Shown here: piece by piece, positions 16,601-58,100 of the stretch | Numbering within the stretch: position 1 is the first letter of the stretch | Layout: every line of letters begins with the position of its first letter | From: Membranipora membranacea | Taxonomy: Eukaryota; Bryozoa; Gymnolaemata; Cheilostomatida; Membraniporidae | Assembly (NCBI GenBank): GCA_914767715.1 | Contig: OU612068.1 | Coordinates: forward strand, 23,188,001 to 23,252,000 | Length of the DNA stretch: 64,000 bases | Direction of reading: 5' to 3' | Translations under genes and position numbers: made by a program | Notes under the pieces: model-generated | The model's input: the letters and a program-made list of their open reading frames with translations, nothing else | What the model was told of the DNA's origin: nothing | Databases searched by the model: none

Positions 16601-19600
16601 CAGAAGTAGCACATATTTGTAACATATACTTGCGGGGTGGATGATTGAATAAAAGTGACAATAGACCAGACAATGCTAGAAAACTCTCACAACGCAAAAG
16701 GAAAATCTGGGATAGTTATAAATTATATAAATCAGTTATTATATTTTGGCACTGATCAGATTTCCAAACAAAGTTATGAAGTATGACCAGAGACTATAGA
16801 TATAGTCTATATCTATAGTCTCTGGTATGACCTTATTATGACAGTTACTTGGCATCTGTCAAAAGACTCTGACGTTTTTTGTGCAGTGAAAATGTATGAC
16901 AGAATATAAAATAAATTTATTTATATAACACAAAAACAGGATACAATGAAACATCGAGGCACCTGCGAACCTACAGATCTCTGACTGAATGTGCTCTTAT
17001 GGCCAGCTATGACTCAAGAAGTATACATTATACACAACTTTCCACAGCATTAAAGCCGAGATCTTTAAAATTCCACTTCCTTTGGTAGGAAATGGGATGC
17101 CAATAGATAGTACACACCTTATTCTCCTCGATTTTCCTGTCGGTTACTGTTCGAGTAGCCTTTTCCACAGCCAGTTCTATCTGTAAACAACAAATTAATT
17201 TCAATGAACGTCTAGCATCAACATGTTGACAGCGGTATGGTAGTTAAAAAGAATACAAATTCACTATTCACCCAGCTTCAGTGCCTCAGCTGTTTTGATG
17301 AGGGAGGTTGGGCGGTTGATAGATGGCACTTTTACCTGTCCCCCCCCCCTCTCACCAAAACAGGTAGGGCACAGAAGCTACATGACAGCAATATCTGGTT
17401 GTGCATGCGATTGATATCCTGAACAGAGGCCCAAGTAAGATAGCTTGGTTCTTTCTTCTGTCTCATTTCCAACTGTTTACACAAAGACCAGCAAAACCAT
17501 GACAACAACATGGTAGCAAATGGTGCAGGTGCCATGAAGTTGGGATTTTCTATCAATTGGCCATCAAAGCATAATAACAGTCAGACGCTATATAATAGAG
17601 TCACAGATAAATCTCAAACTAGGGTAGTCCGGAAGATTGATGGGAGGATTCTGTTTAGGTAAAAGGGAGTTCAACGAAATGGGCCACAGAGACTGAATTT
17701 GATGGTAGAGGATTTACTTACTGGTTTCTTGACTTTGATATGATTATCACACATATTTCTGAGTGGCTTACAGATATCATCCATCAAAGACTCTCCAATC
17801 TTTCTATAAAACGAGAAAATACAACCACATAACATAAGGAGTTATACGAAATCCGGCTTTACAATTCAGGCCTATAAATATATTACCCATACATCATCAG
17901 AGAAATGAGTGTTGAATATTGTTGGGTTCAGCAGAAGACATTCATGGGTGTACTTGAATACATTATTGCCAGAAATTTGTGTGCGGATAGGAGCTGTGGC
18001 TCAGTCTAGTCTAGTCATGATGGCAGGACAGAGAAGCAGGAAGAGACTGCTACCTGCTTCATCATCTTATCAGACTACCAGATACTGTCCTTATCAATAT
18101 TCATTATGATAAGTAGCCTGGTTTGGGCCTGAGTGGGTCATTGTAATAATTACTAAAAGTGCATCAGTCATATCTATACCTGATAAGGATGGGCACACAA
18201 ATTATACTGGAGTTGTGACCAACGAGACAGTAAGCTACATCGCATGTTATGATATTATGAACATTGCATCGATGATTCAGCGTGGGAGTAGAAATGAGAT
18301 CCTATCTCTCATATCCTTCTCTTACAATTTGAGTGGCACATATGACTGTAGATGTCTGTGCATATGGGATCGAAGTGACAAATGAATATGGATGCGGGAA
18401 TGGGAATGAGAAGAGTATGCTGCACCGAAACAAAATCAGAAGCATTCGGTGTACATCCAGGACTTACGATGTGTATGAAAAGAGGGCTTGTGGACTACCC
18501 CAAAGGGAGTGATGGATTGATTATTATCACTGCCAATATATGCCGCTGGAATGCAGCAGGTAATGTTAAATGGGCAGAATGCCAAAAGGTAGGATTTACA
18601 GTGGCAATCATTGGCCGAGATCTATTTTAATATCTCAGTGTAAGGATATATATCTGGGATACTAAGACGTAATCTTGGCCAATTTGTATCTCAATCTTTG
18701 AGCGATAACTGCTGAGCAGATGTAGCAGAAGTCTTAATTCCTCCATTATTGTTTGTGATGTCGGAAACTTTCTAGACAGTTTTGACGTAAGCTGGAAGAG
18801 AAATAATGAGGCTTCCTAATTATGAGGGCTACTATTACATGGCAACATGTACATTACATAATCCAGATATATACAACACACTACAGGATGCAAATAAATT
18901 AGCTCCTGAGCGATGGGTCAGTGATGTCTAGGATCTTATTAAGTATATGTATAGGTGTGCAAATCACTGAGATTATTATACACGAGGGAGTCACAGTGTA
19001 TCATGGCATGGTGTGCCTCACAGATACAGTATACAGTGAGAGTTAGAGTAGGTTTATTTACATAACACTGTAATGATAGGTAATCTCAGAATCAGGTTTA
19101 TTATTATGATATGAGATGTGTCTATGTGTGTATATGATGTTACGCAGTGAGAGGATGTGCCTTGTCAGATGCTCCTGAATATTGATACGCTGGGTATTTC
19201 TGACACTTGGTTATGAAGGCAGGCACAAGCCTGATAATAAATATGAGAGATAGAGCAGGGTTGAGAGTGTGAGAATGACTGAAATGAAATTAGAGCCCGA
19301 TCTCCGCCGATGCAAAGTAGGTCATCTAAGGAGCTTGAAGGAGTTCATAGACAGATTACCCAGTTTGGTTGATATTGTATATATGAAGACCTCTTCACCC
19401 TACTTCTTGTACTTGTCAAAACTGACCATGAAGGCTTTTGGGTTTGGGCTCAGTAGAGTCCTAGGTTCACACAAAACATAGAAATGACATCACACTTACT
19501 GATGGCTCTCTGCCTCCACATTCATCTCTTCTGCCACAGTCTCCCAGGCGGCAGTGGTTGTTCTGTAAAAATGAGGAAAAGGACAAACTATTAAATAAGA

Positions 19601-22600
19601 CTAGATAGACATCACTGTGATCAATAAACTCCCTCTCATTGGTGTGATAGAGGACAGTTTGATGATAGGTATGGAACCACTAACTAGGATTTGAACCAAA
19701 CGTAAATAGCCATGCTCCTATTAAAAACAACTGACATTGTCTGTTTGTACTGCAAATCAAATCCTTGTGGGGCTTTACAGAGCAATATGGCTTCCACAAA
19801 CTCTGAGCTTTCAAATGGTGTTCAGTTTTCTTCAATTAATAGCTTCTGTCCAACCAGCTCATAATAATATGATTTCTCATTATTCAGTCCACTGAACAGT
19901 GACTGTCAATATACAGATAGAAAACTTGTTAAAAGTATCATATGAGTGGCTAAACATCGCCATGTGATGTTGGAATGTAGGGCTACCAGTAGGTATTGAG
20001 CAAATACACATAAATTTCAAGCATAGCTGTAGAAACATACCTAAAATTTAAGTGGGCGAATTTGAAAATGAATACCTTGCGTCAACAAGAGTTAACACCA
20101 GTTTATCGAGTAGTTTTGATGTCTGCCTGAGTGAGAAGCATTTAGCAAACACTTACGTGACCCTAGAAGCGCATATCTTTGCTAATCGAGCACCGAGTTT
20201 CTGTAGTTGTTTGGCATAGTGCAGTTCCAGAGCAGCTCTGTAAACCAAGGAAGATAAGTTTAAGTGATTTATGGTGAATTAAAATACCAATTAAAGTTGA
20301 GACATCAATCTTCCCAGAGTGCTTACATGATAACATCTTAGACTTCCAATTTCACTCCTCAATCTCCTAACCACTTCAAGCAGGGTGTTGAAGGGTCAAC
20401 ACAGTCAATCAGCGTGTTTGAACAGTTCATTAGCAGCAGATGGCTACTTAAATTATACTGGTATGCTCGCTAGCCCTAGCCTACCTTTATCAGTGCTAGA
20501 CCTACCTTTATCAGCAAAACACGATTTATTTGATTAAAATGTGCCTCATTTGGGGGTACAAATAACCGCATATGATCTTGTTTACGAACCACAATCTCAA
20601 GGAGGTAGTGCTTAATGGGGGTGGTAGCAATTCTGTCCTGTCTCTGTGATGAGTCTGGTCTAATAGGGTGTTTCCTTCACCAGGAATTTATTGGTGTTAT
20701 GATAATGACTAAAACATTGAGGACTTATAGGAGCTGCCTACCGCCCAGTCTCCTAGATCCCCTCTCAGGTTTGCCCAGGATGTGTCCCTAAGGAATCAAT
20801 GTACCATAAGATTTGAAGCCCAACTATCCAAGGAGTCATAGTGCACCGGGGATCATGAGTAGGCTATGGTTGTGAGTTATAACTCTACCTGTCAGCGATG
20901 ATAGTCGCCAACTCTCTGCTGCCGTCACATCCTGTCTTTACTATCTGTCGTAACTCATCAAATCCCTCAATACCCTGTCAAGAAAAGAACATAGAAACTA
21001 TTAACTGGTTGAGTGAGGGACCAGACAATGTGAAGCGAGGTCAGGCCGGTGATTGCCTGGTGTTCTGCATTCAAGAAATCCATCAAGTAGCACTTTGCCA
21101 TATTGTTGCAGCGATGCAGGGCCAGGGTGATTGCATGCGATGAATGATATTTAAAAGGAACTGCCTTGCATGAGATCATCAGAGAAAGCTTAAGATATTC
21201 TCATTACAAGATTACATCATGAAAATATAAGACTTGCGTTTCGTTGCCACACACACACCTGCCGATTCTGCAAGGCAACACCTCTGACCAAACCTATATT
21301 AACCAAAGACCATGATGAGCCATGGCAACGAGAGAAAGAATCAACCGCTACCACTTGCAATGACTACCAGTCTGCCACAGTTGGACAAATGATCATTATA
21401 ATGCCACCATGAACTCCAGCTGATCCCATGCCAACCAGAGAGATGTAGGCCTAATGGGCTGCTTGGCAAAGTCTGCAGGCATCCATCGCAATATGGTCAT
21501 CATAATTCAATTAGGGTTTCTATTAGAACATCGCTTTCAGAGAAAGCCAAGCATGACTTCCTAGCATAACATCACAGAGATACTCTGTGATAACATATTC
21601 ATTGAGTTAGAAAAGACCTGCTAATTTTGCATGTGATAAAAGCCAATGATAAGGCAAATCTTTGTAGCTTTTGTCTTGGCTTCAAAAGGCCATTATTCTA
21701 ATCTAGGGTGTTATGAAGTTCAGAAGGCAGTGATTTGAGTCAGTATGCCCAATACAAAACAAGAAACAATGAGAATGTTGTGGGACTGGATGCAAAGCTG
21801 GGCTGATCTTTATCTAACCCAGCTGTCTCTGCAGTCAATGCGCCGCAACAGACTTGGATTGTGACAGCTGATCTAAAATCCGCAGCTCATCAGCTATGGT
21901 TGTTTTGCCCTACTGACTGCTGTAAACCAGAGCAAGGAGGTTGCATCTATGGGATATCAACAGGCTGAAATGTTGATAGTGAGAAATCCTTATCACAAAA
22001 CAAACAATAGCTGCTGGGATAAGTGTTAATCCTTTATAATGATAGAGTAAACAAGAGCTCAAGTTGACAGTCAGGTAGCTATTGACCCGCCACACTAACT
22101 AAGTAATACCCTGCTAATCACTGGAACTAATTCTGTTCGTTAGTGGGTGTATGGACACTATTACTGACTGTACAACGCAGGTGCGTGAGCGAGTACCTGA
22201 CTTGTCTGATAGGGTCAGCTTGTGAAGTCTGAGAAGCACTTTTTCTAATATAAGATTGAGACTGTCACAATAATATTACCTTTTAATTAGATTAAACTAT
22301 GTCAGGCGAAGTGAGTGACACTTTATACACAAAAGATCCAATAATGTTTAACCTGTGCTGACATCAGATGCAAGAAAACCTTTTAGCTGTTTTAATTGCA
22401 ATACCTGAGTTTCTGGGAAAAGATCAATATGTACTATATACATTTACAACCTGATCCAGGCCGAACTTATAACTCTGGTACACTAAACTTAAATGCTCTT
22501 TTCCAAGAGCTTTGCACATCTTATCAATCTTCCATAGGTAGATTCAATAGGAAATTTGCTTGTGAGATGGGAGGTTTTATCCAACTCTCACTGCGAGATT

Positions 22601-29542: not shown

Positions 29543-29587
29543 GTTGTAACCATAAACATCTAAATATTTATATGTTTATGGTTGTAA
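29543..29587. mobile_element. Micro-palindrome family 3, copy 1, with 7-base direct repeats
   Basis: A 31-base near-palindrome (29550-29580) starts CCATAAACAT and ends ATGTTTATG. Exact 7-base repeats GTTGTAA flank it (29543-29549 and 29581-29587). A second copy with a 6-of-7 flanking repeat is at 56098, and a third without a clear repeat is at 39067. Confidence 0.7.
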
Positions 29588-31181
29588 GGACTCAAACTGT
29601 CATAGATATTTACATCAAAATTCAAATAAGTTTAGGACTGCCAGACAGCGAAGGCTGATCATAGTGACTGCCAATTTTAAGTATGAAGGGTTGCAGTAAA
29701 TTTGAAGGGTAAACATATAGCATCTCAAGGCTGAGGGACAGACTGAAACCCACACACTATCAAATAATCCACATGTCGCCAGCATAGATACAAGCTTATA
29801 TCTAACCAAATGGGTTTATCTGATAATGAAGCAGAGATTATATGGTATCGGGTATGATAACTTACGTAAAAGTGTGTGACAAATAATGCCGGTGGATCCA
29901 TGATAATATCCTCAAGTCTGTACTGCTAAACTGTATATCCACTAGTGAGTACCTCACAGCCTGTCAGGGTTTATTTGGGACTAGGAGATGTCCTAATTCT
30001 GCGTCATTTGCAGTGCAGTGATGATGATAGCACTTCAATAAAAGAGCCAAATAAGCACTATAAAACCGACAGATCGAACTAAATCAGTCGACAAGCATAC
30101 CAAACAATTTTCACAGCTGAATGCTTCTCTATTGAATAGAAATAGGTAATTTCAAATTAATAATTCCGCACACTACAGTCTCAAGCCGAGAAGCAAAGAA
30201 GCGTGGGTTCATCTAATCAATTATTGGTAAACCATACACAATTTTAAACTTACTACAAGGCCTGAAGAGTGCTACTACTGAGGGTAAATTATCAGTGGGC
30301 TCGCCATCACTGAAGTAGCCCTAAACAATGGAGAGTTATGTAATTAAAGTGTTATTGACGTTGACGATGTTGAATCAGGTTGGATTATTTATGATTGACA
30401 TGCACAGCATTATAATCATGAGTTGTTACCAAGTTTTTGAGAGTTGCCATGACCTGGTGTAAAACTCAGAGGATGGTTTCAAATGACGTAAGATTTTGTG
30501 AAGACTCAATTGCCAGTTTTTGAAGATGTGGGCAGAAGACGATTATTATAGTCTTGAGACCTGAGATTTCCGAGGATGAAGTTAACAGGTCTATAATTAG
30601 CAGGGCATGGTATTTAGGCCGATACGAAACACCTGAAACACCCTCAAAATCTCGAGCATGACATAATATTTTGGGCAAAACATAGAAAATTGTAGTAAAC
30701 CATACATTTTGCCAACAATTTTGTCACTATTCAACCTCAATCAAGTTGGGTATAGTCATAGCTATCACAGTGAGGAGGCGGGATGTTTATCGCCCACACT
30801 ACTATTAGTCATACCACTTTACCAGTTACCATTAAATTTTAAAACCAACATAATTGTACATACCAGTTTAAATTGTTGTCTAGAAGAGGTCCTTAATCCT
30901 CTGTCACAATGAAGGCAGACAGGCTCACAAGGTTTCTAATAATGCAGACTCGAGAGGGCCGCTTGCCTGAAAAAAGCAACAGGACTTTATTCGGATCAAA
31001 TTTGAACTCTGTGACCGGATAAAGCAAATAAGAGCATTCAAAACATTAAATTGGCCGTGAAAATTACAATTGTTACCCTGTGATCAATAATTGAAGACAG
31101 TGACAAAGGTCTGTAATTTTAACAAACACGTGAAACAAAACAAGAAATGATGGAATGTACAAATGGGTCATGTCAAAGATA

Positions 31182-31226
31182 GTTATATCAAGGAGCAACA
31201 GCGTTGCCGTTACTCCTTGGTTATAT
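31182..31226. mobile_element. Micro-palindrome family 4, copy 1, with 7-base direct repeats
   Basis: A 31-base imperfect palindrome (31189-31219) has ends CAAGGAG and CTCCTTG around an AAC/GTT inner stem. It is flanked by exact 7-base repeats GTTATAT (31182-31188 and 31220-31226). Relatives are at 33100 and 52115. Confidence 0.78.
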
Positions 31227-31724
31227 AGTCAGCCAATGGCTATGTGGCTTTAATATACTAAAAAAGACCCCAATTCTAAAGATATGGATGATGTAAGTTT
31301 GTTCATATACTATAAAACATGTGCAGCTTAACTCAGTTTAGACAGGAAGAAAATTAAACATGGATTTTAGGGCATGCACTAATTTGAAAAATTAGTTCAT
31401 CATTAGGTCAGGGCACTATGTTAGTTTTTTGAGCATGAATATGGGGCCCTATAAATAATATGTATAGGCTTCTGAGCTCTGGGAAACCTCGTTGCCCATT
31501 AAACCAATCACCGGGCAATTGCGCATATTTCCTTCGAAAAAACAAAAAGTAGGACATACATGCAGACTCGTTCCAGGTCCTGTAATTAGCCATAATTAGC
31601 CATAAACATAATATGCTAATTGCAGGCTTGCAAGCCCCAGGAGACCATGGTATAGGCCCAGGTATGGACAATGTCAAAGTTTCAGGTTCGGGGTCTACTA
31701 ATTCAAAAGTAGGATATTATGGAG

Positions 31725-33099: not shown

Positions 33100-33131
33100 T
33101 ACTAACCAAGGAGTTAACTCCTTGTACTAAC
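33100..33131. mobile_element. Micro-palindrome family 4, copy 2, with 7-base direct repeats
   Basis: The 18-base perfect palindrome CAAGGAGTTAACTCCTTG (33107-33124) is flanked by exact 7-base repeats TACTAAC (33100-33106 and 33125-33131). It is among the shortest and cleanest examples of the pattern. Confidence 0.8.
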
Positions 33132-33242: not shown

Positions 33243-34147
33243 AATACCAACGACCGATTCCCCCTAACTTATTTGGAACCCATTCCTCCTCGATGTGTTG
33301 GTCCGACTGTAATAGACCCTGCATTGGTGGTAGCCAATACTGGTGTTGACAGAGCTACCGAACCCTATATATGATTGTGGCCTCTGTCAGGGTGATTTTT
33401 TTAAGCGCTGTAAAGTAGTAGACCTGGTACATGGTCAATAGAAGCAATGAGAGGGAGTTCATTGGTTGTCACGTATCAGTTTGTATCCAGCTTTATTGTA
33501 CTATTTCGCTAAATCATATGTACATACTGAAGGCTGTAATTGCCGCAGGGCGTCTCTGTTAGTTCATAACTGTGTTTTACCAAGGTCTGACTGTGTAGCA
33601 TGCCCTGCAAACTTGCTGATAAGGGATTGGAAGTCGGTAGGGTAGTTTTCTTCAGCTTTAGTAGCTTAGTATATTACTCAATATTGCCCACACTTTTTTC
33701 TGACGCCCAAGGGGCATGTGTTAACATGTATTGTTGCTTTGATGATCAGTAATCTCTCTATCAGGTTGTTTAAAAGAGTGGCGTTCACAGTTTCTGTTTT
33801 ATTTTTGTAGGTAACTGATAATAGAACAATGCTGAAACAGACATCAACAGAAGTATAGCATATTAATTTGAAGCTGTAAATATTATCAACGCTTTTTGAG
33901 TACAAAAATAGTACCTTGCTCTCGGATGATTAGTTGATGAAGGAAATTAATTCTACCAATAAAGTGCTCAGTATTAGTGCACTGACCTAGAGAGAAGGAT
34001 CACGAGGATATACGTCTTATTTCCGATAGCTCTGGATTATACTTCACCATGAATGATCAATCATTTGTGGATTAAACCCTGCCGTGTCTCAAGGACTGCC
34101 CACGCTAATAGTAAATCAGGAGCTTGGTAGTTTATAGTGGTAATTTA

Positions 34148-37100: not shown

Positions 37101-40100
37101 GGCACTGATAGCCATAGAGTGGGCATCGAACTGCCATAACTTTGACTAATTTTTGACCCCTCAGGATCGCTAGACAATGCAATAGCAGCATCACTTTTAC
37201 TTTTCGGTAACTTTGATTCCACATGGTTATCATACTGCAGTGATAGTGAATGCCTTTGCTATACCTTTGCTATCATATTTATTTTTGTGGTCATATGACT
37301 TGGAAATAATGCTGGCGGTATGCTCATTGTTTGGCATCTCAAGAACATTGCTAGTTCACTGAACGCCCAGCTCAACAATAGTGATGTCAGATGATTGGAA
37401 ATGCTGCCATATATCTCATCTATCTCAAAACAATCAAAAGTTGTGATATCAACAGTGAGAATGAGAAACCCTCTCCCTCCCTCCCTCCCCAAATAGCTGC
37501 TCCTATTGAAGCAAAAGCTGGTACCATTCTAGGGTAATGATCACTAACTTGTCCGAGTGATACAGGACTATGTCTGACACACCTAGTTATTAAATAATAG
37601 CTCTATAGTCTGACACCATGCCAACTCAGGCCTCGCTCATAGCCTCGTCATATCAGGTACCGCTGTGTGCGGTAATCTTCAAAGATCTCTGGCACCTAAA
37701 TTCACATTTTCTTCACGTTTTGACTCATTTCATGTAAACATTAAGAAGCTAGTTTCAAAATTAAACTGTGTGTTGCTGGACTGGCAAATGGCTCAAATGA
37801 TGGATCAATTTATTCTGTCAATTTTTCCTGAGAATGAATTGCCAGTCATGGTGTTTTAAGTATTTTTCCCACCGGTATTAGTTAATTTTTATTTTGGCAC
37901 ACAATACTAACAATCTAGCAGTTTTCAAGAATGTCCTTTCTTATAACAATGACTCATTCAGATTGTCCTCAATTCAGGACTCCCTAGATTTAACATACTT
38001 CACCTCAGGTTCCCAAGCACTAACACTTGGAAATTGTGCTGCTTTTTACACAGCACCACCTTGCTGGATGATGAACAACCTGTTGCATGTTAGCTATTGC
38101 TACCATTCATAATCTATGTTGGTTTTTCCAATTCCAGGAGGGCCGCAGGTTCGATTTACTATCGGTGCAGGTGATAAACAGGCCATACAACCGTCTATGA
38201 ATAACATGATACCCATAACACGCAGAACTGTGGCTATATTCTTCCAGGAGTTAGGTAAGTCTTAACTCTAGACTGCTGGTCTGTACCAGTCAGGGTATTG
38301 TGGGGGGGGGGGGGTCTTCCAATGAGAATATGCACAAATTGTAATTTCTGGTTTTCTAGTCTGGTCCAAGGCATGTGCTGTACCTGCTTTGTTCTATGCC
38401 AGTGGATTCTCAGAAAACCAATTCTGACAACTAACTACTCTTATAGAAAAAAGAAAAAAATGTCTTACAAATTGCAGTCGATAGGTTGCAACGCTATTTC
38501 ATTCTCATTGAAAGACCCCCTCCGTCCCCAGGAGAGTCACGTATCATCATTCCGCTCAATGCGCCTTAACCAGAGACTATATATATCTACAGTCTCTGCC
38601 TTAACTGCAAATTATGACTATCCAGGGTAAACTTTATTTAGTTAGAGTTATGGATGGGGGAGTTTCCTAATTCCAGAATTAAGTTGAATTGAACCCAATC
38701 GACCCTGATGATGTGGTTGGGTCATACCTCCGCAACTATATGACTCAATTATTCATCAAAAGAAGATCAATCACAATATTCAACTGACTGAATTCAGTTA
38801 CTAAGGCAGTGACTCAACATACTAAGGACAATCAGTGCCGTCCCTGTAACTTTAGAGCTCTCTGGGTGAGACCTATTCTGAGCCCCCAGACTGTTGGCCG
38901 ATCCCCCCCCCATCCTACAGCCCCCGACTGAGCTCTGTACGGACTAGACATGAGGATGGTTTCAATTATCCATCCCAACCCTGGATAAAACCTGGCCTGT
39001 TTTCAGTAGAGATTATCAAATAGCTACTGGTACTACAGTGATCATGGAGCCAAACTTATTTTTAACCCATAAAATAAACATGAGTATTTATATGATTATG
39101 GTTTATTCACACCTGCAATAGTTTATAAATTCAGCCAGGAGTTTCCAATTCATAGCATCTCCTGGAACCATTAAATTTTAGAGATATAATAGCAGCGGAA
39201 AACATAAGTTCCATATAGTAAGCAAAATACTCCCTAGGCCGTACCTAATGTCCAATAACCTGGCAATGATGATATCTTGGACCAAGTGTGCCATTTGATC
39301 AGATCATGACATAGTCCAGTACTCTGATCGACAGATAGTGTATATACTGCGGCCGATCTGCCCTCTGATCTGTAGATAGCGCAGAGATCGGAGTATGATG
39401 TCAGCGTCATCAGGTATCGAGAGTTTCTCTTATACTGGAATGTGTGTACTTGATAACCCAAACAAATCACTGATATCGGTGGACAATATACATGGTTTAT
39501 CTGGGTAACACGATATAATGTTTGTTTGCCAAGCAGCTTATGAGCTACTTACTACAAATCAGTGATGCCACACTTATGTGTCTTGTAATAAACGCTGCTG
39601 CCATATTTTACTTGATGCACTAGACAGCGTATCGACAGCATATGGTGATAGCGTGTAATACATTAGGGAGCATCATTCCTGCTGCCTGAGGCAAAAACAT
39701 ATTTTATAGATGATTGTAGTATTTAGAACCTAGAATTCTTCATAAGTATTTAACATGTCTTCACAGAGTAAGGATATATCCTTACTCTGTGATGTCTTGT
39801 CATTCAAAGATTCCTCTTTGCCTCTTGTCTAACTAGCACTTTTCTATCAAAAACCAAATAAAGTCCCATAGGTTTGAGGCCGTCCATGTCCTAGATACTT
39901 TGAAGCATGTGCCTTACTTACTAATTTGATTACAGAAATTAGACTGATGTGGGATTAGGCTCTTCTAGATAACATCCAAACGTTGTTAGGTACAGATTTG
40001 GACACCATTCTGGGTAATTAATTGGCTTGATATACACAAACTTATGCCTAATGAGGGCCTCTGATATACATAAACCATCACTAAACACTGCAGAAAACTT

Positions 40101-43100
40101 ACATTATCGGAGGAGCCGTTTAATTGATGGCGAAATATTAAATAAAATATCGATACAGTCCCATTGATCCCCTTACTTCTCAGACTGTAATCAGATAGAT
40201 ACTTAGCCTAAGGCTATAACTCTGTTGCAGCAGCAGCAACATAAATTCTCATCTCGTGCCTCTCAAAACCAACTGGCCAATATAGACGAGCTGAACATAT
40301 GCCTGTCAAATACACACACGGAATTTACATTCACATTTCTTCTCGATCAGCGGCACCGACTGCTATTGTTTAACGGCTACCTGGTATCCTACTTTTAAAG
40401 GTCAAACTGCCAGTGTTTGTGTGTTGGGTTTGCTACGATAACTTAGACTATAATGCACAGCCCAGATCTAAAGACCCGGTCTTGAAATATGAACCTAGTC
40501 AGTAAGCAGGACTCGTAGTTGGGCGTGAAAATGAATAACTTTTAGTCAGGTTAGCAAGGTTTCCAGCCATTGAGACACATAGCAGCATCTTGACGGCGAT
40601 TTTGTAACTAACCCGGATACCAGTGGTTGCTCAATTTTGAAGAATTGCTGTAATGAATCCCTAAATTGTTGGCTTTCTAAGTCTTAATGATTTATTCCCA
40701 GCCATCTAATTGATTTATCACCAAATTTGATACAAATCTAATTCAATTTTATTGAACCACACGAGTAAATGAACTCATCGGTGGCAAAACTTATATAAGG
40801 TGGGGTTGGGATTGACGTGATTGATTCAATCTGTGATACTCCCTGATCAAATTGATGACAGGCAATCCAACTACTCATACACACTCCTCCTGGTCATGAT
40901 TTATGTTAATTGTTTGTGAATCATAATATTTTGTCTTTTTATGTGATTAAAATTGGCAGCAGCTTGTCCTACCAATGGAGACAATTGATTAATAGGCTAT
41001 TGTCTATGGTGTTAGGTACCTGTGAACATTTCTGGGAACTTATAACAGATTACATGTTTGCTTACCAAAACATTGCATTTAACGGAGGAACACAAATTCG
41101 TAATGTTCATGAAGACTTGCAACACTGAGTCTTGTGGATTGGTTACATGAGGTCTTTCAATAGACTGCTGACAAGCTTTGCCCACCAGTCCTATCAGTTT
41201 TCATCAACTGCTGGTCTTGCAATGGTCATTTCCTATAATCTCCAACTATCCTATGCAAGGATGACTTCTAACTCAGCCTGTGTGTACAAAGGAAATAGAG
41301 GAAGCTTCATAAGTTCTCACAGTAACCTGTAACTTAGAGGCTAGTGATGTGAGTCACTGTACACAGTGAGGATGATGCTCTCTGTCCTGCTTTTTGTGAT
41401 ACTGAAATACAGAAACGATGTTTCACAACTCATCTTTCCGATTGTGATAAGAGAAGACAAAGCAGTATCTCAAGTTGATGTTTAACCTCATAAAACACTG
41501 ACTGAGCAACAAGCGTGTCAGGTGATCTTGCCAATCTACAAGACAATGCTTGGAGCTCTTACTTCAGTCCGCTGCACAATAGGTGAAAAATGATGTTAGA
41601 TAACAGTGCTGAGCTTTTGTCATTACCAGTAACTCCTATAGGAAAAAACAGTAAACAAACTAATGTGATTCATAAAGCATCCATGTTCATGTAGAAACTT
41701 TGGAGTTGAAAGGGAAGTCATTATGGCGAGTTCATTGGTTTTGAATAATAGACTCACCTCATCAGTATTCATTTTTTTTAAAACATAGTACACTACTTAA
41801 CATTTTTGCATATGTTTTCATGTGCTGCAACGCTGTCATTGCATATGGTATACTAGGTGTCATTGGCAGCGCATTAAGCGAGCAATCAACATGGTCCTAT
41901 CCAATATCATCAGCAATGAATCTATATATGTATGCTGGTACACTCATGTATATATCTATATTACACATGGGATTGAACATGAATTAAGTTAATTACGGGT
42001 TTGTGCCAGGAGCAGGGACTTATAGTTTAGGTATTAGCTGGGAATGTGTAATTATCCTATCTAACCCCCATGATAAACAGGAGTGCTTCTTACTACACTG
42101 TCCAGTTGTGTTTCATGTCTAATAATGTGGTCACATGATCATCTCAGACACGATTCATGTCTCAGGTGATGTTCCTGTCAAGTAAAAATGTGTATGGATG
42201 GTTATTATACATGTATTATGGGTGCTCTGAATGATTTAAGGTCATGATTTATTTACTGATAAGCCTTGTTATGAATATTTATCCTTCCACAATCTTAGAA
42301 TAACATGAAAACTAATGTCGCCTTGTCACTGATGAGTAATGAATCTGTCTAATAAGAATAATGAGTCAATGGGCAGACAACTCTGTAATGTAGAGCAATA
42401 GTATCCCATGATGCAATTTTTTAATGGCAGTTTCTGAGTGAGGCAAACCCAAAAAGAGAATACAATAAATGTTTTTATATTTTACAGGTATACACAATGC
42501 TATGGTGCTGGTATGTGCTGCCCTGACTGATCATAAGATACTGTTTACCTCTCAGAGTTATAACCGACTAGCAGATACAAGCAACGCTCTGTCTGCACTC
42601 CTCTATCCCCTCAAATACAGGTCAGTGAGGTCCACCTCCATTATGCGTGTCACATGACCATATTGATATCTAGATATTTTAAAGAAAGCACCGGAGATTT
42701 ATATCTTTAATTTGACATGAGGCTATACCAGAGACAATGGATATTATCTATAGTCTCTGGCTATACTGTAGTTTGCATTTACAATAATTTAGCTTTACTG
42801 TTCCTTTGGGTTAGCCGCATTTAAAATTGTGATTACGCCTCTAAATACCTGGCCGATCGCTTATGAAAAACATCGTGGACAACAACTATCAAAACAGGAC
42901 ACAATCATGGTTACCGATGGTGCACTCCTTCCCTCATTTATGATTGTTTGCTGGAATATTTTATGAGGTGATTCCAGTCTAGTATGCTTTCATCTCCATA
43001 GTTTAATGATGCCTAACCCGCATGGTCTTTGACTTTGCACTGGCATGCACTCCGTTGCAGAAATGCTAAGAATTCTACATTAGGCTAAATGGAACTAGAT

Positions 43101-46100
43101 GAATTCCACAGAGTGCTGATAATTTGCTATCTGATTAACTCTAGTTTATTTACTCCATACCGACCTGGCACTGAGGACCGCTCTCACTTTGAGATGATGG
43201 CATGCCCTTGTAAGCAGCTGCTGTGATTATTTGTTAGGTTTGGCACTAGCCTATGATTTCAAAAGCTATTTTCAGGCACAAGTGCTCTCAAACCGTGTTT
43301 GATGTTTTCCCATCCCTCCAGTTATCATAAGATGTTTTTTAAGTCAACATACTGCAGTTAACTAAATTAAGATATATAGAAGATAAATAGGCAATAATTG
43401 CACAACTTTGGCACGCTACCTTTTGTTCATTACATTTTTGATGGCACTGTTTCTCCGAGCTTCAAAGAACTTCAAAGAATTAGCTAACTAGCCAGTATCT
43501 ATTGGCATCAGTTTTATGATTATTTTAAATGTGCACTCCTCACTCGAAATTCAAGAAACTCAATACCTTGGTGTGAATATCCAGCTGTTGGTTTGCTAGC
43601 AAACATGGCATAATCTCAGTAAATATCCATCGCGGCGCTACATCCCTATTCGTGTCAGCCAAATGGTAGCTTATAAAAGGGCGCAAAAAATAGGTCAAAC
43701 TCGGCCGCTCATAACATTGATACATGTCTAACAGAATATATAAGTATATATATAATATAAATGTATATCATTGATGTTTTATATTACAGTTATGTGTACA
43801 TCCCTCTGCTGCCGGCTGCCTTAGTGGAGGTGTTGAGTACGCCCACACCATTTATAGCTGGTGTACACTCCTCAGTGAGGAATGAGGTACTGGACTTACT
43901 CGATGTGATTATAGTGGACTGTGACAGTGGTAGAGTAGTTATACCTGAATGTGTACACATACCTACCATGCCTGAGCCTATGAACACTCGTCTACTAGAG
44001 GGTCTTAGTTTGGTAAGTACTATGCATTATTGATAGGCAAGTTTTTTGGGCTGATGTTGGAAGATCTATTGCCATCATAATAAGAATGAATCATCTCCAA
44101 ATGTAATTTTGGTCAAGTCTTCCTTCGAGATGATGATTAGATCTTTGAAACATAATTTGTGCAGACCGTTCAGTGCGGACCATTCTCAGAATGATCTGCA
44201 CTGAACAGTCTGTACATTCCCAACCTATTTTTTTTCTTTTTTCGTCATGAACTGAACTGCGATACGTGTTTCTGCCTGAGCTTGATTCATTAGCTAGTGA
44301 GAGTCTGTCAGGACAGGCCACTATACCCAAACATAACAACACAGAGTAAGGATCCTTACTCTGTGATATCAAATAGCCACTTTAGCATAGGTTAATATAT
44401 AATATATAATGGAAACTCATGAAATATCGCTTGATTGTAGCTATTGGAACGCAGAAGCGATTATCGAGTTCAATCAAGCTTCGTCTGAGTTTCCTTGACC
44501 AATAAATGGCTCATTTCAGAGGTTAACACCCACACTATCCACAGGATATCATGATCTATTTCAGTTAGGCTTCATTAAACATGGTATCGGCAATCGTTAT
44601 GTCATCTAAGGATGTTGCCAAAAACTTAATACCTACGTTTCACATGGATTGTTAGGGCTGTAAGCTAGTCCATCCAGTAGCTGGTAAAGGCGTTCTGTCA
44701 TCAACCACCCCCATGGTGGTTAGTTGATGATGGAATGACACTACCAGCCAACTATATACTCAGACTAGTGAATATTTATTGAAAATTTAAATTAGGATTT
44801 TGAAAGTTACACATGTTTAGAAAAATTGCGCTAAGTGGAATTTGACATGCAACTGCTTTGTAGTTTAGTGAACAAGGTTGAAATTGGTATCTAGAGTAAG
44901 ATTTTCTGCTTTACAGGGTAATGATCATTGCATAAGGTTGCATTGGTCTTTACCACCCCTCTCATTAAAGAGAAAGTTTAGATCTAGCTCTAAAAGACCT
45001 AGAAACCCTGAACAGATAAAAACTAGTATTTATATGTTTATGGTTTCTAGGTTTCTAGGTTGCTAGTATTTATATGTTTTTGATCTAACCCGAACACTTT
45101 ATTCTTGCAGGTGCTGAACCCTGACCTGAGTCACGCTGACACAGCCTTCCCTAAGGATGTGAGTAAGACGGCGAACCTGGAGGAGCTGGATAAGGAGATC
45201 AGATCTGTGTTTATTAGATTCTTCGCTGAGCTGTTCAGTGGATACAGAGCCTGTCTACAGATAGTCAGGATACACTCACCACCTGTTATACAATTCCATA
45301 ATGTAAGATTGCCTCCGTTGTCAAAAAGTGTCACCATCTTTGTCATTGTCTCCCCTGTCATACAAGTCAATGGCGTCTGTAAGATAGTCGTCCTTGTCAT
45401 ACTATAGGCCTACAGTGACAATTTTTCTACCATATTTTGACATGGTGTTTTAATTCAAGCCTAATCCCCTGTTAAAATGAATATAAGCCTACTGTGGTAA
45501 AGTTTAGAATAATATGCTGCTAGTGTTGATCACGCAGTTTGGTAGCAACGTGGAACCGCCATGTGGAACAAACGTGGAGCCAGCCATGTAAAATACAATC
45601 ATCATCATGTCCAGAAATGCTCACATGATTGTATAAATGCTATCAGGGAGGCACACAAGTTTGGATGATTTATTTATTTCAGATTATATAAAATTGTAAT
45701 TTTTTATGATAGGATGATAGTTATGTACACTGATTTATTGCCCCTCTGTTCCCAGCTGAAGGGGTCTTGAGACTCGTTAGTCATTTAATCAGACCAAAGA
45801 GATAGAGAGAGCTTCTTGGTATAGACTCTCCACGCAGAGATTGTAGTAATTTAACTGGCTCCAACTTTATAGGGTTGCTGGTAGTGGCATTCCATCATCG
45901 ACCACCTTCTGTCCACAAGATCTGCAAATAGTAAATAATGGATTGCCACCGCCGGCACCCCAGGCAACGTTAGTGCAATTAATCTAGGGTTGTTTCCTAA
46001 ATATGGGAGGCTGGGTGTGAAATAATAACCATTGGTCATGCGCTCATCTGATAATTACTACTACTAATATTATTGTCTATTTGCAGGCCAAGTTTCTTGG

Positions 46101-49100
46101 TATGAGGAATCTTGTGGAGTGTGAGTTCTCTAAGAAAGTTTTGGAGAGCATGTGCTTTGCCTCATTCGTGCAATCCAGAGGTGCTCCTTTTAGAATCTGT
46201 GATATATTTGATGAGGTAGGTGGAAGTTTCATAATATACTCAGTAGTGTGTTAGAATCGCTGCTGTCAGCAAATAAACAATATTAAATACCTACAGTCCA
46301 TTACAATTAACTCATGTGGTTGTATTAGTGAACACAAAAACTGATAAGACATAAAAATGATTATGTAGGCCAGAATGCATTGGCAAAGCACCAAGAAGCG
46401 GTAATGACCACCAAATCAGTTACTGCATTATTATCCAGTCACATGTCAAGTTGTTTGAACTGGAGTTCAAAGCCTCATGGTGTTGACCCACTGTAGGGAC
46501 TATTGTGCTAAAACTGACCACCACATGCATTCTCTAATTCTGTTTCACCAGCGAGTTGTCATTGTCAGTCATGATGGGTCATAATTGTGTTTTCATGATT
46601 AATTATGATGATTTGCAGTCAAAAGCCTAAATTGCAAATTGACTTTGACATAAGTATGCTAGTTATTGGTGCAATGTCCCAAAGGCAAGAGAATGTACCC
46701 AAAATTGTTTACATTCCTCCACCACCACCGCAGTTCCGACATCATATGATAGTTTGGTATTTGGCTGGCTGCTGGATATCAGCCCATACTACCAGCAGAA
46801 TACCAAGTAGTCCTTGATGATCCTGCCTGCTCTAGTATGTTGTTAATTACTAGAGCATTGGAGGTAATAAGATGAGTTATTAGGAATCGCTCAACCTCAA
46901 CGGGTCAAACCTGTGAGAGGTGAGGTACGGCTAGCCATGGTTGTGGGGGTATGGATAGATGCAATCTTGAACAAACATTGGTCATACACTCTGCACCACT
47001 ACCATCATAAAAACCAGGATGCTCTTTGTAGATGAAAGACAACTCCTTACTCCAAAATTTTCGATCTAGACTAATAATGCTCAATAAATATGTTGTTATT
47101 GTTATTTTGACAGGTATTTGCATCACTCTCCGCGGCTTTTCACGAGGAACAGGTCGATCCTAGTCTGGTATATTCACATATAAAGAAAATAGCGAACACT
47201 CTCTATAAAAACGTAAGATTCTAACCTAGTCTTTGTCTAACTTATCTTATCATTCTCAAGCTCTCTTTTTTCCTTTTCTTCATTTTTTTATGCACTATTC
47301 AGAAAACATTCCGCTATCGGAATGAAATTGACTGCCAATAAAAGTGTTGAAAAATCGAAAAGAAAAAAAAACCAAACTCAAATCTAGGGATATACTGTTG
47401 GACTGCTGGAATACTAGTTAGCTAGTGTAATATAAGAGTTTAGATCCTAGATCTGAGAAACAAGAAGCTGTGTTTTTGCATTTCATATCCAAATTATTAT
47501 TATTATTATCAAGTGGAGTCGTGCATAATGTGTGGCTGTTAATGGTCAAGTAGTTTTTAGCATTGATTATATCCTGCAAATAATTCATTTTTCCCTTATG
47601 CGATAGGCTCATGTTCGATGCGTATAACTGAGAGCTGACTGACTGATATTTTTAATGTTATATTTTTCAGGAGAATCCTAGCAGTCAGCTGTTTACAGAT
47701 AAGATACCGAAGCCGACAGCTGGTGCCTTCTCTCGTATACATCTGCCTAAGTTCCCAATCATAGACTGGGTTCATGTGCAGGAGATTGTGGATAAGAGCC
47801 AGACCAAGAGAGATGGCTATGAAAAGTAATTTTTTGAGCCATCATGATTGTATTATTATACCCTTTCTATATTGGTGTATATAATAGACAGTTTTCTGAG
47901 CTCTGATATAGGCCTCAATTTGGAATTGTCCTCTCTCCAGTTTGGTACTTTTAACCCACGCCGCATAGGAAAAACGTGCTGAAAAGAGGGTTATCTTGAA
48001 AACCACTATAGGATAAAAATTGTTTTTGATTTAGAATCTGCAACATTGAAAACTCATAATGAGCAATGTTTGGTAAATAGTCAATTATAGCATTCTCTGC
48101 CAGTTTTGCGGACAATTTGGCAGAATCTTTCATGAGTTTCGTCACTAAAATTAAGACTTATCAACAGTCAAGCCTCCAATGATTTGGAAACCCTGTCTCC
48201 CAGGGTTTTCAATGGTGCAGACTCTGAATCAAAAATCATTTTTATCCTAGCATCAGCGGTTTTAAAGATAACCCTCTTTCAGCAGGTTTTTCCTATGCGG
48301 CGTGGGTTAAAAGTACCAAACTGGAGAGAGGACAACTCCGAATTGGGGCATAAATAAGAGCTCAGAAAACTGTCTATATTGGAACCAAGGCTGTCAGAAT
48401 CTTCAGAAAGTTCGAATTGAGATTTATTGACTGTGATTTTTTATTGTATTTAACTGGTAAGCAAGTGAAAAGAATCGAGGTATTGCACAATTTTTTGGGA
48501 TTTCCATGAGTTTCTTAGTTTTCATGACGAGTGTCTTTAATTGTATTTTTTATTATTTAGACACACACAACACCTCAAGATTCCATCACAGAGAATAGTA
48601 CCGATGGGTATGAGTCTGAACAAGCAGACTTCTTATCAGGCCAACCAGACTAGGAGGCTGGAGGTCTTACACAACTGTGTCAAGTTTATATTCGAAAACA
48701 AAATCTCAGACGCTAGGAAGGTACGTTGTGGTTTGTATTTTGGGTTTGTTTATTTTGCAATTTTTATGATAAAAATATCAAGGGAAAGGAAAAATGTTAT
48801 TGGACTGAGGTTTGGACTATATAAAAAAAATGACAGGATTACAAAAATATATTGACAGTGTTTGTAGAGTTGTTGCGACACTATTGACAGTGACGATTGA
48901 GGTAGGACAGTTTACATGACAGTATTGACAGTGTTTGTGACAATATAATGTGGAGGACTGTTTTAACAAAAAAATAGACTATAAACCATGTCTATTATCT
49001 AACTGGACCTCCTTCTGGAGCGTCGGGACCTCCTTCGTCGGCGGCGACCTCCTCTTCTCCTTGAGCTCCTCTTTCGGCCACGTCGAGACCTCCTTCGAGA

Positions 49101-52100: not shown

Positions 52101-55100
52101 TCAGAATACAATGCAAGTGATCAAGGAGTACTCCTTGGAGTGATCTTATTCACATTAACTTATGTGTGTGGTTTAGGAATTTCTCTCATCAATGCAGTGA
52201 TTTCTAGCATGGTGCAATCTTGTTTTGGTATCAAGTGAACTTTGGGCAATGCAATCATCAATGAATAAACAACAATCGTTTACTCATTATCATTTTTTTA
52301 TGGGGATGATTGCATACTTTCAGCCAAAGTACGTACTTTCTTAACTCAGAAATATCTGTCAGGATGGCCGAGCGGTCTAAGGCGCTGCGTTCAGGTCGCA
52401 GTCTACTCTTGTAGGCGTGGGTTCGAATCCCACTTCTGACACACAATTTTGCGTGTCTATGGTGATGAAGCTACCTAAACTTAGAAACATCAATGTGTAT
52501 TTGCCTGGATATGTTGCTTACAATTACTATGTGACAGTGTATATTTGATTTGAATGGGGTCTAACCTCTTGTTGCAAAACTTCTCTGCAAAGGCATTAGA
52601 TATATTGTATACACACAACCAACTTGTGGTTCAGAGCAGGTTCAGAGCTGGTTGTATTTTATAAAGTGTTGAGTTGTGTTTTCTACCACATAAAGCTGAC
52701 AACTCTGCTTCTCTTGAGCTACAATATTGTGATTGGCTACCTACATTATTTCTTTAAAGTGATAATAAGTATACAATGATGTAATTATTGAACTTTGGCC
52801 TCTAAAGAATTGCCAATAACCTATTGCATACATTGCGCCTCATGATTCCAACAGTCAGGATGGCCGAGCGGTCTAAGGCGCTGCGTTCAGGTCGCAGTCT
52901 ACTCTTGTAGGCGTGGGTTCGAATCCCACTTCTGACACATGTTTTATATCCTGATTGTAAGCCGGTGGTGATATAATGTGTATTCATTGGGCTCAAGTTT
53001 TAATATTGAAAATAAGCTGTTTTCTTCTGTCAAAAAAAACAACAGCTTCACTTTGAAGAATTATGATACTCAAGCTCATGTTCTTGGACCATTCTAAGCA
53101 CTAACACTGCATGTTGAGCTCCTATTGACATTTTGAGTTTTGCTTTATTCTAGTTGCGGAAGGCCAAATACACCAGAGACGAACAGTTGGAGTCACTGAA
53201 CACACAAGAGGAAGGGATCGTCTACTCGCAGGCGATTCACTTTTGCAACAGGATGGTCTATCTCAAGGTGCCGTTAGATACTAGCAGAGGAATGCCTTTT
53301 ATGCCACACGGTGAAGAGAGCGCCAGCAGTCGCTACACTCCCAGGTAATAACTGTAAGATTCTCCTTTGGTTTTTGACAACAAATCATCATTGGGTTGTT
53401 AGCACTTTTTGGGTCTCTTACACAGTGATAATTCTAATTTGACATTTAATTTGTTACAGCGTTGCGGACAGTAATAGTTTAGATGGAGAGTCAGGATTTG
53501 AGGAGGCTGAGGTGTCAGAAGTAGCTTCTGGTGTTACTAAAGTCATCACCAGATTTATCGAGAAGGTGAGTGCTGCCATTTATATGTTATTAGGCTATCT
53601 ATTATTTATTACTTATATGGCGATGAAGAATCTATCTATGAACTCATTGTCAGGACAGCTAATCGAACCGTCAAAAAAGGTTATACTAGCTAACATAACC
53701 ATTTTAATTTTAAAAGCTAGACTTGAAATAGGTTGTGACTGTGTACAAGGGTACGTCAGGTCAACATTTTGTTCGTTGCTCATTCTCCATTCCTATGGTA
53801 CTTTAGGTATGCCGAGAGAGTGGCGTTACAGATAATCACATGAAGTCATTATATCAGAATATACCAACTATAGTTTCTATGCATGTGGAGACGATAGAGC
53901 ATGTGTGCAGAGAGAGCAAAAGGCTACCTCCCATTCTCAAGGTAAATAAAAAATTTTAAATTGAGGAATTCCAAATTGAGTGTCTGAAAATTTGATGGTT
54001 GATTTAGACCATTTTCTTCTTTTCATGATTTGTTGATATACATGTTGTTGAGAATGTTTACAAAATATATAATGTAGTGACCGGAGTATGCATACTATAA
54101 GGTTTCTGACCGTGATGGTGTCTCGCCTCATTTCTTTAGCCTAAGATCACCGAGCCATGTTTGTTACCTGGTGAGGAGCTGATAGTGGATGGTTTGAGGG
54201 CGTATCTGCTCACTGACGGTAGGGATGAATATCAGCCATTGGAACCTGGACCACAATTTTTACCAACAGAAGGTGCTATATTTCTAACTACGTACAGAGT
54301 TATCTTCAAGGGTACACCTTGTGACCAATATGGTGAGTTGATGACTTTATCACAACCAAGGAGCCGAATCCCCGTTAACACTTTGCTAAAAATCCTTGCA
54401 ATTTTTGCGTTTCAATTGGGCAAATTTCCATCCAAATCGCTCACTCACTCACTCACTTTAGTTCCATGTGTGGTATTTGTCATGTTCCGCTCATCACAGC
54501 AAGAGGATGACTTATTTTACAGAAAGACCCCCTTGGTCGATTAACTGCCACTAATTCGATTGTTTCTGTTTGTAGCATGTGAGCTGAATGTGATTCGTTC
54601 AATGCCCATCTCCTCAGTAACAAAGGAAAAGAAGATGAGAAGTGAATATTTTCAACCTCTAGAGATGTATCTACAACATATAATACAAGTCAGATCTCAT
54701 ACCTTCCAGGTATAATAACCCATAATTATATATCTATGACTTAATAACCCCTAGACATGCAGGAATGGTATAATAGAAATAATTAAGTAGAACATATAAA
54801 CATTCTGACAGCGTGAAAATTTGATCAACATTTTTATTCATGTGTATTATTGGAATTTTCTCTTCTGATAAACAAAGTTGAAATGATAAACTGAGATTTT
54901 TTTGTTTTTTTGATTAAATTTGTACCTATAATAACAAATGATAAATTCCATCCTCTCCTTGTTCAGCTGATGAAGATCGGTTTTGATGAGGAGGTCGGTG
55001 AGGAGAATGTAGAACATTTCCGTAAATCTCTGCTCAAATATCGCTCGCCCACCAGTGTACTGGAGACGTTCGCATTCAGCGGTGCTGCTGTCATACCTGT

Positions 55101-58100
55101 AGCTATCGATCAAAAGAGAAAGGACTCCAAATACCACACTCTCAGGTAGGTCTTGTGTACAATTTTGAGGGTCCCATTGTTCCCCCTTCCATTATTTGCT
55201 TGAGAAGTTGAGAATTAAATTAGTGAGAGATTTCATGTTTGAAAATAGTTGCGAGGATTTTAATCTTCACACTAGTTTGAGTTTGTTAATGGTGTAATCA
55301 GCTGACAAAATAGATAACTGACGGAGTTCATTACTGGTTAAACAATATTACAAACATATGATCAGTTTTAAATGCACAACATATTTTGAGTTGTAAATTG
55401 TCTTTTTTTGTGTGAAATCTGTCACCAATCTTGCCCATCCAAAACCTAACATAAAGTCAAATGTTTTTCCTCACAGGGATTTCGGTAAGACATTGAAGAA
55501 ACAAGTGCGTAAGACAGCAGGTCTGAAACCACACAAGCCGTCAGATCGTAAGACTCGCTACATGCTGTCATCTCGAGGGAGTATGAGAGGAATACCGCCA
55601 GCTCTAGCTGAGGAGTTTGATGGTAGACCGGATAGTGTGTACGGGGACGAAGATAACTGGTCCAGTAAGTATATTAATGACAGGAATTGAGGAGCTTAGT
55701 CTACTTATGTTGGTATTGGTAGACTTGTGATATATTTTTGCATGTTTATCTCTGATCGATAGTGAGTGAATTAATTCACTTAGCTCGAGTACCATCATAT
55801 CATATCATATCAGACTAGAAAAAGTTTAATCTAATTGCCTGCATTCCTTCTTGCTCCCTTCCACTGGTCCTGCGGCGTGACCAGTGGATTGGTAGCGACT
55901 CGGAATGCAGGCAAATGGACCAAACTGGTCTATAGCAGACAATCCAATGCCGATTTCAATAACTTGGGACAGGCACATGTGAGGTTCTCATACCAAATGG
56001 ACTCTAATGATCAGAGATGTACATGCTAACAATGAAGTCTCGATGTCAGTGCGGTTGACCAATCAGTCACTGCTACCATCTGTCGGTTTACCCCATAGTA
56101 TACACCATAATCATATAAATACTTATTTATATGTTTATGGCATACACAATATTCAAGGTTTATCCTACATTGATGTGTAAAATCCATTGTACGCAAATAT
56201 GTCTATGAAAAAATTGATGATTTGTCTGTGAAGTGCCTGTGTGTTCGGTCTGTGAGTATTATTATGTCTGTGATTTAGGGCTTCATACTGCCGGCACTCT
56301 CCCCTCATCATGGAGAGCGTTCAGCTCCCAACTTTCAAGTAAGACTGATTGAAATGCCTGAATACTTTGAAGTAGCGTTCTCTGGGTGATCTATTCAGTT
56401 ACAGTGTCACGCTGATTTTCACTATCATCTCTATACTAATTTTTTATATTAATATATTTCGCTAAGTCATGACTTTACCTGTCCAAAACATCACCTACAA
56501 CACCTTACCGAGAATAACAGGTTTGTGGCGACCCGAATGCTTAGCCCTGCATTGAGACCCCAGAACCTTGTCCGTCTGAACATTTTCTTTGTCTAGGGAT
56601 TATAACTTTGAAAAAAACATGTATAAGAGAAAGGATTACTGACCTGTGCTTACATCTGTTCATTATTGTGCGGCCTTAAGTTGTAAAGTGGTGTAAAGTG
56701 GCAGCATTTAATTATCAATCAAATTCTGGGGATGTGGTTGATAATAAAATACTACTACCCTCAACCTGGGCAATGTTTGAGCACATTTTAAACTACATGG
56801 CCTTGAATTATTTTGAGAACATTCGGAATTGGAACTTATATTTTACACATAACAAATCTGATACATTTATAGGACGAGAGGGAAGGCGGCATTTGACTCT
56901 TCACAACCTTGATGGTGAATGTTTTAGTTTTTAGTGATCAGTGAAAATTGAGTGAAATTTAACATTTTAATCTTTAATCTAAACGCTAGTATCTAGTATT
57001 GTGTCATTTCCAGAGAATTCGCAGTTGATGTGTGAGTGCTCTAATATTTCATTCCCACCAGTAAAACTCTGCATTCACAATCTTAACAATAACTCTGCAT
57101 CTAGAATAGATTTTCATTCCCATTTCCTATTCGCCTGAGATCGAAAGGGGAGACCCTGTGGGGAGGGAGGGGGCAGGGGCTAATTTAGCATGAACATTGC
57201 CAATATTTTAGACTATAAGTAAAGTAATAAATATACATGTCAGAAAATGCATGTTCATCAGACAATACCTTACACCTTTGTTGGTTCAGGATGGAAGTCC
57301 AAATCTGTGTTGTGTAAAATCCCCGACCAGAACATACCAATCATACCCCGCCCCCTAGCATGGCAGTTTGTGAATTGGCTAAATATGCTTTTGATTTTAG
57401 GTCAAATCGAAGATGGTGCGTATCCGCACTTAATAATGCGGGTTTCATTTCTTCTAGTGTTTTGCTTTGAAACTGCTCTGAAGTTATGATTTCAACTCAC
57501 ATATGTTTTGTTGCGATTAATTGGATGTTGTAAATATATTTTTACACTTTTTCGTAGTTATTTTCCATAATTGTATGTGCTTTTAATTTATCTTTCACTT
57601 TCTCCCTTTTGTAAAACATTATGCAAAGTCAAATGACAATATCTGAACAAAGCTTTCAATTTTCTTATTTGGGTTCCATTGGACCTTAAAACGGAGGCTT
57701 CATGTCGTACAACCTATAAAACAGAAACTACATGTAGACTGGTACAATAGTTCTTGGTCAGTTGTTCAATTGTATACGGTATGTTTGTCATGTTGATATG
57801 TTGATGGTTACAGTGATATCACAAGAGGACCTGCACCTGTCCCCTCAGATCGACCCTAAGACCCAGGAGAGGCTGTCAGAGTTGCTCTGTTATCGAGACT
57901 TTGTAAGACTGGAACTGATCAGCTCACAGAGAGGAATAGGTCAGCGCAGCAGATCAGAACAATTCTTCATCAGCAATCTCAACTCTAGCTACAAAATGTG
58001 TCACAGGTAATACTTCTGTAATATTTGTTTCGATCTTAACTGGCTTTCACTCAAATGACAAAAATACACACCGCCAAGCCTTGCTTGCATAGTGGAGGCA

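Follow-up and report, generated by a model that had tools for sequence, protein, structure and literature searches.

Short palindromes in the genome of the bryozoan Membranipora membranacea are very probably excision scars of P-superfamily transposons

Introduction

The P transposase of Drosophila melanogaster is reported to produce 3′ extensions of 17 nucleotides (nt) (PMC7776569). The footprints left by experimental excision of P elements in Rad51-deficient (spn-A) flies, as described in PMC2895639, retain no more than 17 nt from either terminal repeat, with outer ends CA…TG, shared bases or filler in the centre and a copy of the 8-base-pair (bp) target site duplication (TSD) on both sides. 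Table 1 of that report lists junctions with a shared AT or TA, blunt joins, short insertions and near-total loss of the repeat. Here, we describe palindromes of the same anatomy in a 64-kb stretch of chromosome 4 of the bryozoan Membranipora membranacea (G000:C4:23188001-23252000, termed the window; genome of 339,339,785 bases), which very probably represent footprints (scars) left by the excision of DNA transposons belonging to several families of the P superfamily. Unlike the Drosophila set, which derives from one family, the bryozoan scars carry 7-bp (and 8-bp) duplications, belong to at least four families with 7-bp duplications and are found in a standing reference genome.

According to the mechanism proposed here, a full-length or internally deleted element would insert and duplicate 7 bp of the target (8 bp in a second group). 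Upon excision, the transposase would cut one strand at the element end and the other strand 17 nt inside the terminal repeat, so that a 3′ tail with 17 nt of the terminal repeat would stay behind on each donor flank. Joining of these tails by annealing of a few bases, trimming or filler would yield a product in which the two TSD copies enclose up to 17 nt from each end of the element, with microhomology or filler in between. As the element ends are inverted repeats, the joined product would always be nearly palindromic, with a length of up to about 34 bp between the TSD copies. We infer cutting at nt 17 by the bryozoan transposases, the repair pathway and the timing in the germ line from the anatomy of the inserts and of the related elements described below.

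Results

The window was scanned for palindromes with arms of at least 6 bp, inserts of 12–60 bp and exact TSDs of 5–10 bp. Exact, abutting 7-bp repeats were found to flank eight inserts of 17–37 bp (Table 1), all of which start with CA and end with TG although the ends were no criterion of the scan. No insert with a TSD of at least 7 bp was obtained in 20 dinucleotide-preserving shuffles, and inserts with a 6-bp TSD appeared at 0.35 per shuffle. The palindromes are thus real insertions with common ends, as an earlier note on this DNA had proposed. Seven exact sites, rather than the eight stated in that note, are located between positions 16781 and 56146; the eighth site of the scan, at 2663, lies outside and represents a fifth family, CAATGAAC. 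Allowing one TSD mismatch yielded two more CA…TG sites, 44333 and 52115, together with seven background-like rows lacking such ends. A looser scan (arms 6/7, TSD 6/7) yielded a further site, 53174, whose interior differs from that of its family. Of the four families originally described, ‘CCATAAAC’ is better read as CATAAAC…GTTTATG flanked by 8-bp duplications that agree at 7 of 8 positions; for an occurrence of this family near 45036, inspection by eye gave no clear duplication. The single duplication length assumed earlier holds for the CAGAGAC, CACAGAG, CAAGGAG and CAATGAAC families (7 bp), and CATAAAC and a further family, CATAGACC, duplicate 8 bp.

Genome-wide (339 Mb), the CAGAGAC pattern CAGAGACN{4,30}GTCTCTG was found at 1,092 places compared to 110 for the reversed arrangement. 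The pattern CACAGAGTAAGGATATA followed by a non-T base occurred at 145 places versus 0, and CAAGGAGYAACNG at 1,228 places versus 27, with a complete reverse arm in 12 of the 31 rows showing letters. The three CAGAGAC palindromes of the window compare with 0.2 expected from the genome mean, the scar-dense part being 16781–44372. Only two exact 7-bp sites (L005:7430 and L011:3662) were detected in 120 kb outside the window (12 stretches of 10 kb, with L016 excluded as it lies inside the window); the window is therefore dense, having been picked for density.

Target duplications were analysed at 43 of the 50 listed CAGAGAC places (of 1,092), all within the first 13.6 Mb of C1. This sample comprises L001–L003 and 40 fetched stretches chosen without looking at the flanks; the three sites of the L004 tandem cluster and the four places at the end of the list were excluded, and two members, L054 and L066, represent a single repeat in two copies and are thus not independent. 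Exact 7-bp TSDs were present at 33 of the 43 sites and TSDs matching at 6 or more of 7 positions at 37, whereas random pairs at equal spacing match exactly at a rate of 0.0001. The 33 exact TSDs follow the consensus RTNNNAY; position 2 is T in 30 of them, and position 6 is A in 30 as well. They match GTANTAC at 120 of 198 positions compared to 53 expected and a maximum of 73 in 5,000 draws, and one of them (L001) is exactly GTAGTAC. For the CACAGAG family, the sample consisted of 20 of the 21 listed rows holding the full reverse arm, and the seven exact TSDs among them gave the consensus ATNNNAT. In L042 and L069, palindromes of this family are separated from CAGAGAC scars by no more than about 100 bp, which suggests shared insertion hot spots. 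In L004 (G000:C1:949672-950192), three CAGAGAC palindromes form a tandem array with GTGGTAC-like flanks that are not exact TSDs.

Elements with the same ends as the scars were identified. The 17 nt CAGAGACTATAGATATA followed by a non-T base occurred at 282 places (control 0) and continued as the native repeat GAGACCTTCCACTTG in 48 of the 100 rows listed, often as inverted pairs about 1.2 kb apart. Five elements with CAGAGAC ends were fetched (1,228–4,523 bp; Table 1), each with its first 32–33 nt identical between both ends; the TSD is an exact 7-bp repeat in four and matches at 6 of 7 positions in the fifth, L027. The largest, L026, contains THAP, PF21787 and PF21789 domains, and the PF21787 matches at C2:17677790-17678187 fall inside it; PF12017 and PF21788 were not seen in L026. 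Because its transposase is scattered over several frames (introns or damage), L026 is labelled transposase-bearing rather than proven autonomous. The P-transposase domain PF21787 gave 134 matches in the M. membranacea genome and none in 14 control genomes. Several of these matches are paired with equal scores, and open frames reach 762 amino acids. Some P copies are recent, as transposase stretches L020/L021 and L018/L019 share 99.9% and 99.3% identity, respectively. A combined search for TSDs and terminal inverted repeats in the first eight transposase stretches revealed no ends, the stretches being too short to reach them. The traits of P-superfamily donors, namely a THAP domain, a P-type helix-turn-helix, an RNase H domain with a GTP-binding insertion, and terminal inverted repeats with 7–8-bp TSDs, are all present. 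The link to P-type transposons, called speculative in the earlier note, is thereby supported, and the idea that one type of enzyme is involved also holds.

The arms of the palindromes stop far short of the native repeat. Compared with the 32-nt repeat, the 86 exact arms of the 43 CAGAGAC sites range from 7 to 18 nt with a mode of 17 (26 arms); 82 are 17 nt or shorter, four have 18 and none reaches 19, whereas the native CAGAGAC repeat has 32–33 nt. Similarly, the 52 listed non-native rows with intact first 17 nt depart from the native sequence within 2 nt in 51 cases and within 5 nt in one. Uniform internal deletion would leave both arms at 18 nt or less in 28% of cases, corresponding to about 1e-24 for 43 independent sites.

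The junctions between the exact arms share 2–6 nt at 18 of the 43 CAGAGAC sites, are blunt at two and carry 1–12 nt of other letters at 23, old mutations being counted as filler. Among the 20 filler-free junctions, 15 share 4 or 6 nt; when every possible blunt join of 7–17-nt arms is considered, the figure is 25 of 121. Eight sites have the 30-bp form by length, and seven of them share the identical sequence, equivalent to two 17-nt tails annealed at TATA. Exact TSDs occur at every insert length from 17 to 37 bp, and the centres vary among many sites.

The group with 8-bp duplications comprises CATAAAC, found in the window, and CATAGACC (L015 and L006); the duplication matches at 8 of 8 positions in L015 and at 7 of 8 elsewhere. 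A 4,934-bp element that starts at L020:333 and is covered by L020 together with the overlapping stretch L030 has 35-nt identical ends and an exact 8-bp TSD, GTTAGATC. It encodes THAP, PF12017, PF21787, PF21788 and PF21789 domains and matches the P transposase structure PDB 6p5a with an E value of 6.7e-13. A 48-bp palindrome at L015:1354-1401 has the ends of this element and is flanked by the exact 8-bp TSD GCTAGCAC, and a paralogous stretch inside L015 (blastn, 72% over 127 nt) lacks the 48-bp insert and retains a single target copy. For both CAGAGAC and CATAGACC, two TSD copies flank a residue, and the genome contains a mobile donor whose ends match.

Regarding the surroundings of the scars, the window contains exons with matches to uDENN, DENN, GRAM, TOCA HR1 and M14 peptidase; we take the uDENN/DENN/GRAM exons to belong to an SBF/MTMR5-like gene. 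A long element with P-like ends was sought within the window and no convincing candidate was obtained. A 494-bp inverted repeat at 47884–48377 (101-nt arms at 93%, 292-nt spacer) resembles a miniature inverted-repeat transposable element (MITE) and has no clear P-type ends or TSD. The window also contains two identical tRNA-Leu(CAG) genes (86 identical nt) at 52358–52442 and 52854–52938, 496 bp apart.

Table 1. Scars and probable scars in the window, and fetched elements with CAGAGAC ends. Positions are those of the window; a slash separates the two copies of an inexact TSD.
Feature	Positions	Strand	TSD	Insert or element
Scar, CAATGAAC family	2663..2694	.	CTGAAAC (7 bp)	18 bp, 2670-2687
Scar, CAGAGAC family	16781..16831	.	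GTATGAC	37 bp, 16788-16824; 17 nt of terminal inverted repeat + GTC + 17 nt of the repeat reversed
Scar, CACAGAG family	21566..21596	.	ATAACAT	17 bp, 21573-21589
Probable scar, CATAAAC family	29543..29588	.	GTTGTAAC/GTTGTAAG (8 bp, 7/8)	30 bp, 29551-29580
Scar, CAAGGAG family	31182..31226	.	GTTATAT	31 bp, 31189-31219
Scar, CAAGGAG family	33100..33131	.	TACTAAC	18 bp, 33107-33124
CAATGAAC-family palindrome, opposite orientation	33445..33464	.	no duplication	20 bp
Scar, CAGAGAC family	38564..38605	.	CCTTAAC	28 bp, 38571-38598
Scar, CACAGAG family	39755..39798	.	ATGTCTT	30 bp, 39762-39791; two 17-nt arms sharing TATA
Scar, CAGAGAC family	42722..42766	.	GCTATAC	31 bp, 42729-42759
Scar, CACAGAG family	44333..44372	.	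ATAACAA/ATATCAA (6/7)	26 bp, 44340-44365
Scar, CAAGGAG family	52115..52144	.	AAGTGAT/GAGTGAT (6/7)	16 bp, 52122-52137
Probable scar, CATAAAC family	56098..56147	.	GTATACAC/GCATACAC (8 bp, 7/8)	34 bp, 56106-56139
CAGAGAC-end element L026			GTTAGAC	4,523 bp
CAGAGAC-end element L028			GTAGGAC	1,228 bp
CAGAGAC-end element L029			TTGGTAT	2,220 bp
CAGAGAC-end element L031			GTCAAAC	1,282 bp
CAGAGAC-end element L027			GTGAAAT/GTTAAAT	1,248 bp

Discussion

Several observations weigh against an interpretation of the palindromes as P-type excision scars. At six of the 43 CAGAGAC sites, the two TSD copies agree at no more than 5 of 7 positions, and none of the three sites of the L004 cluster has an exact TSD, so that their inclusion gives 33 of 46. 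Among the 20 CACAGAG sites, an exact TSD is seen at only seven, and 11 reach a match of at least 6 of 7 positions. By exact arms, 21 of the 43 CAGAGAC junctions contain 1–12 nt derived from neither arm, later mutation being indistinguishable from filler. If one mismatch is allowed, 11 of the 86 arms reach 19 nt. Full-length donors were not found for CAAGGAG, CATAAAC or CAATGAAC; for CACAGAG, only the recurring continuation CAGAGGGGACACTTCAAC points to donors, and 37 of the 100 rows listed are neither native-like nor turned back. An empty allele was not seen for any window site, and a local search for empty copies of 7-bp sites in the fetched sequence recovered only the L054/L066 pair, both filled. 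By eye, the arms of the L015 scar measure 22 and 25 nt and exceed 17; this palindrome (L015:1354) is the one scar with a known donor on which the 17-nt limit was checked in the 8-bp group, and its long arms could be accounted for if some repair synthesis preceded joining or if the cut lay deeper. Finally, the commonest single class of Drosophila footprints in PMC2895639 loses nearly all of the repeat, and thus not every P scar is palindromic.

Among other explanations, internally deleted elements, i.e. extreme MITEs that arose by interrupted gap repair and then remained static or spread, are very unlikely. In the assay of PMC2895639, end joining after incomplete synthesis is said to account for most wild-type repair products, the long arms of the L015 scar would fit such an origin, and genuine deleted copies of 1.2–2.2 kb are present; deletion breakpoints, however, would not halt at nt 17–18 in all 86 arms.

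Slightly less probable still, and very unlikely overall, is the class of ultra-short mobile elements put forward in the earlier note, in which palindromes of 16–37 bp, barely two transposase-binding sites, would be cut and pasted by a P-type transposase. The recurrence of the families, the many exact TSDs and a target motif in common with the full-length elements agree with this idea. It was abandoned, as exact TSDs occur irrespective of insert length, the centres differ at many sites and resemble end-joining junctions, and the arms end at nt 17–18 of a 32–33-nt repeat. Moreover, end sequences of no less than 138 bp and 216 bp are reported to be required for Drosophila P to move (PMC1562414), and the 17-nt stagger reported in PMC7776569 would, at both ends of an insert of 34 bp or less, leave no duplex to move.

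Chance palindromes, satellite sequence or assembly artefacts, which the L004 array, the duplicated repeat of L054 and L066 and the identical TSD and length of CACAGAG sites L079 and L080 might suggest, are refuted for the bulk of sites by the shuffled windows, the reversed-arrangement control and the rate of exact TSDs, and are scarcely credible as a general explanation. CACAGAG also resembles the CACAGTG heptamer of recombination signal sequences; an origin from such signals or Transib-like elements was rejected, as the TSDs have 7 bp and the donors are THAP/P elements.

For the CAGAGAC family, 48% of the 282 matches correspond to about 135 native ends or about 68 elements, so that roughly 1,000 scars face roughly 70 intact-ended copies; this ratio is rough and biased upward, because palindromes were counted with 7 exact nt per end and native ends with 17, and because the 100 rows listed first do not form a random sample. 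On balance, we favour the view that excision scars of P-superfamily elements in M. membranacea form a natural fossil record of P-type transposition, with thousands of scars from several P families exceeding the resident copies by an order of magnitude. The 17-nt staggered cut followed by end joining would then also operate in bryozoan relatives with 7-bp TSDs and would probably be ancestral to the superfamily. The mechanism itself is already known from experiments in Drosophila; what appears to be new are the thousands of scars and the apparent occurrence of 17-nt cutting in a bryozoan species. A search of the open-access literature returned no report of natural P scars at such scale, which is not proof of absence. 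If this view is correct, the ratio of scars to copies would provide an odometer that registers past jumps, and the junctions could be read as a catalogue of end joining in the germ line. Cut site and repair outcome of unstudied transposases would become measurable from sequence alone in a distant phylum, and annotators of repeats run the risk of miscalling such palindromes as tiny MITEs.

Beyond Drosophila P, three described systems are close to the bryozoan families. Galileo, a member of the P superfamily, resembles the CAGAGAC family in its 7-bp TSD, the consensus of which, GTAGTAC, is close to RTNNNAY, and in its THAP/P-type transposase, and differs by very long terminal repeats (PMC2775673) in contrast to the 32–33 bp of the CAGAGAC elements; in the CATAGACC element of L020, whose TSD is 8 bp long, inverted repeats of about 247 bp occur internally. 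The P-MITEs of Anopheles gambiae are likewise short relatives of P that have terminal repeats and duplicate their target, but their duplications are 8 bp long, they contain internal sequence and they are interpreted as mobile (PMC1562414), whereas the bryozoan palindromes have no interior. Zebrafish Pdre/THAP9 provides a further P-type transposase outside flies, with element ends that also begin with CA (CATACCTG); its duplication is 8 bp long, and its excision is documented in cell assays (PMC10983969) rather than as a genome record.

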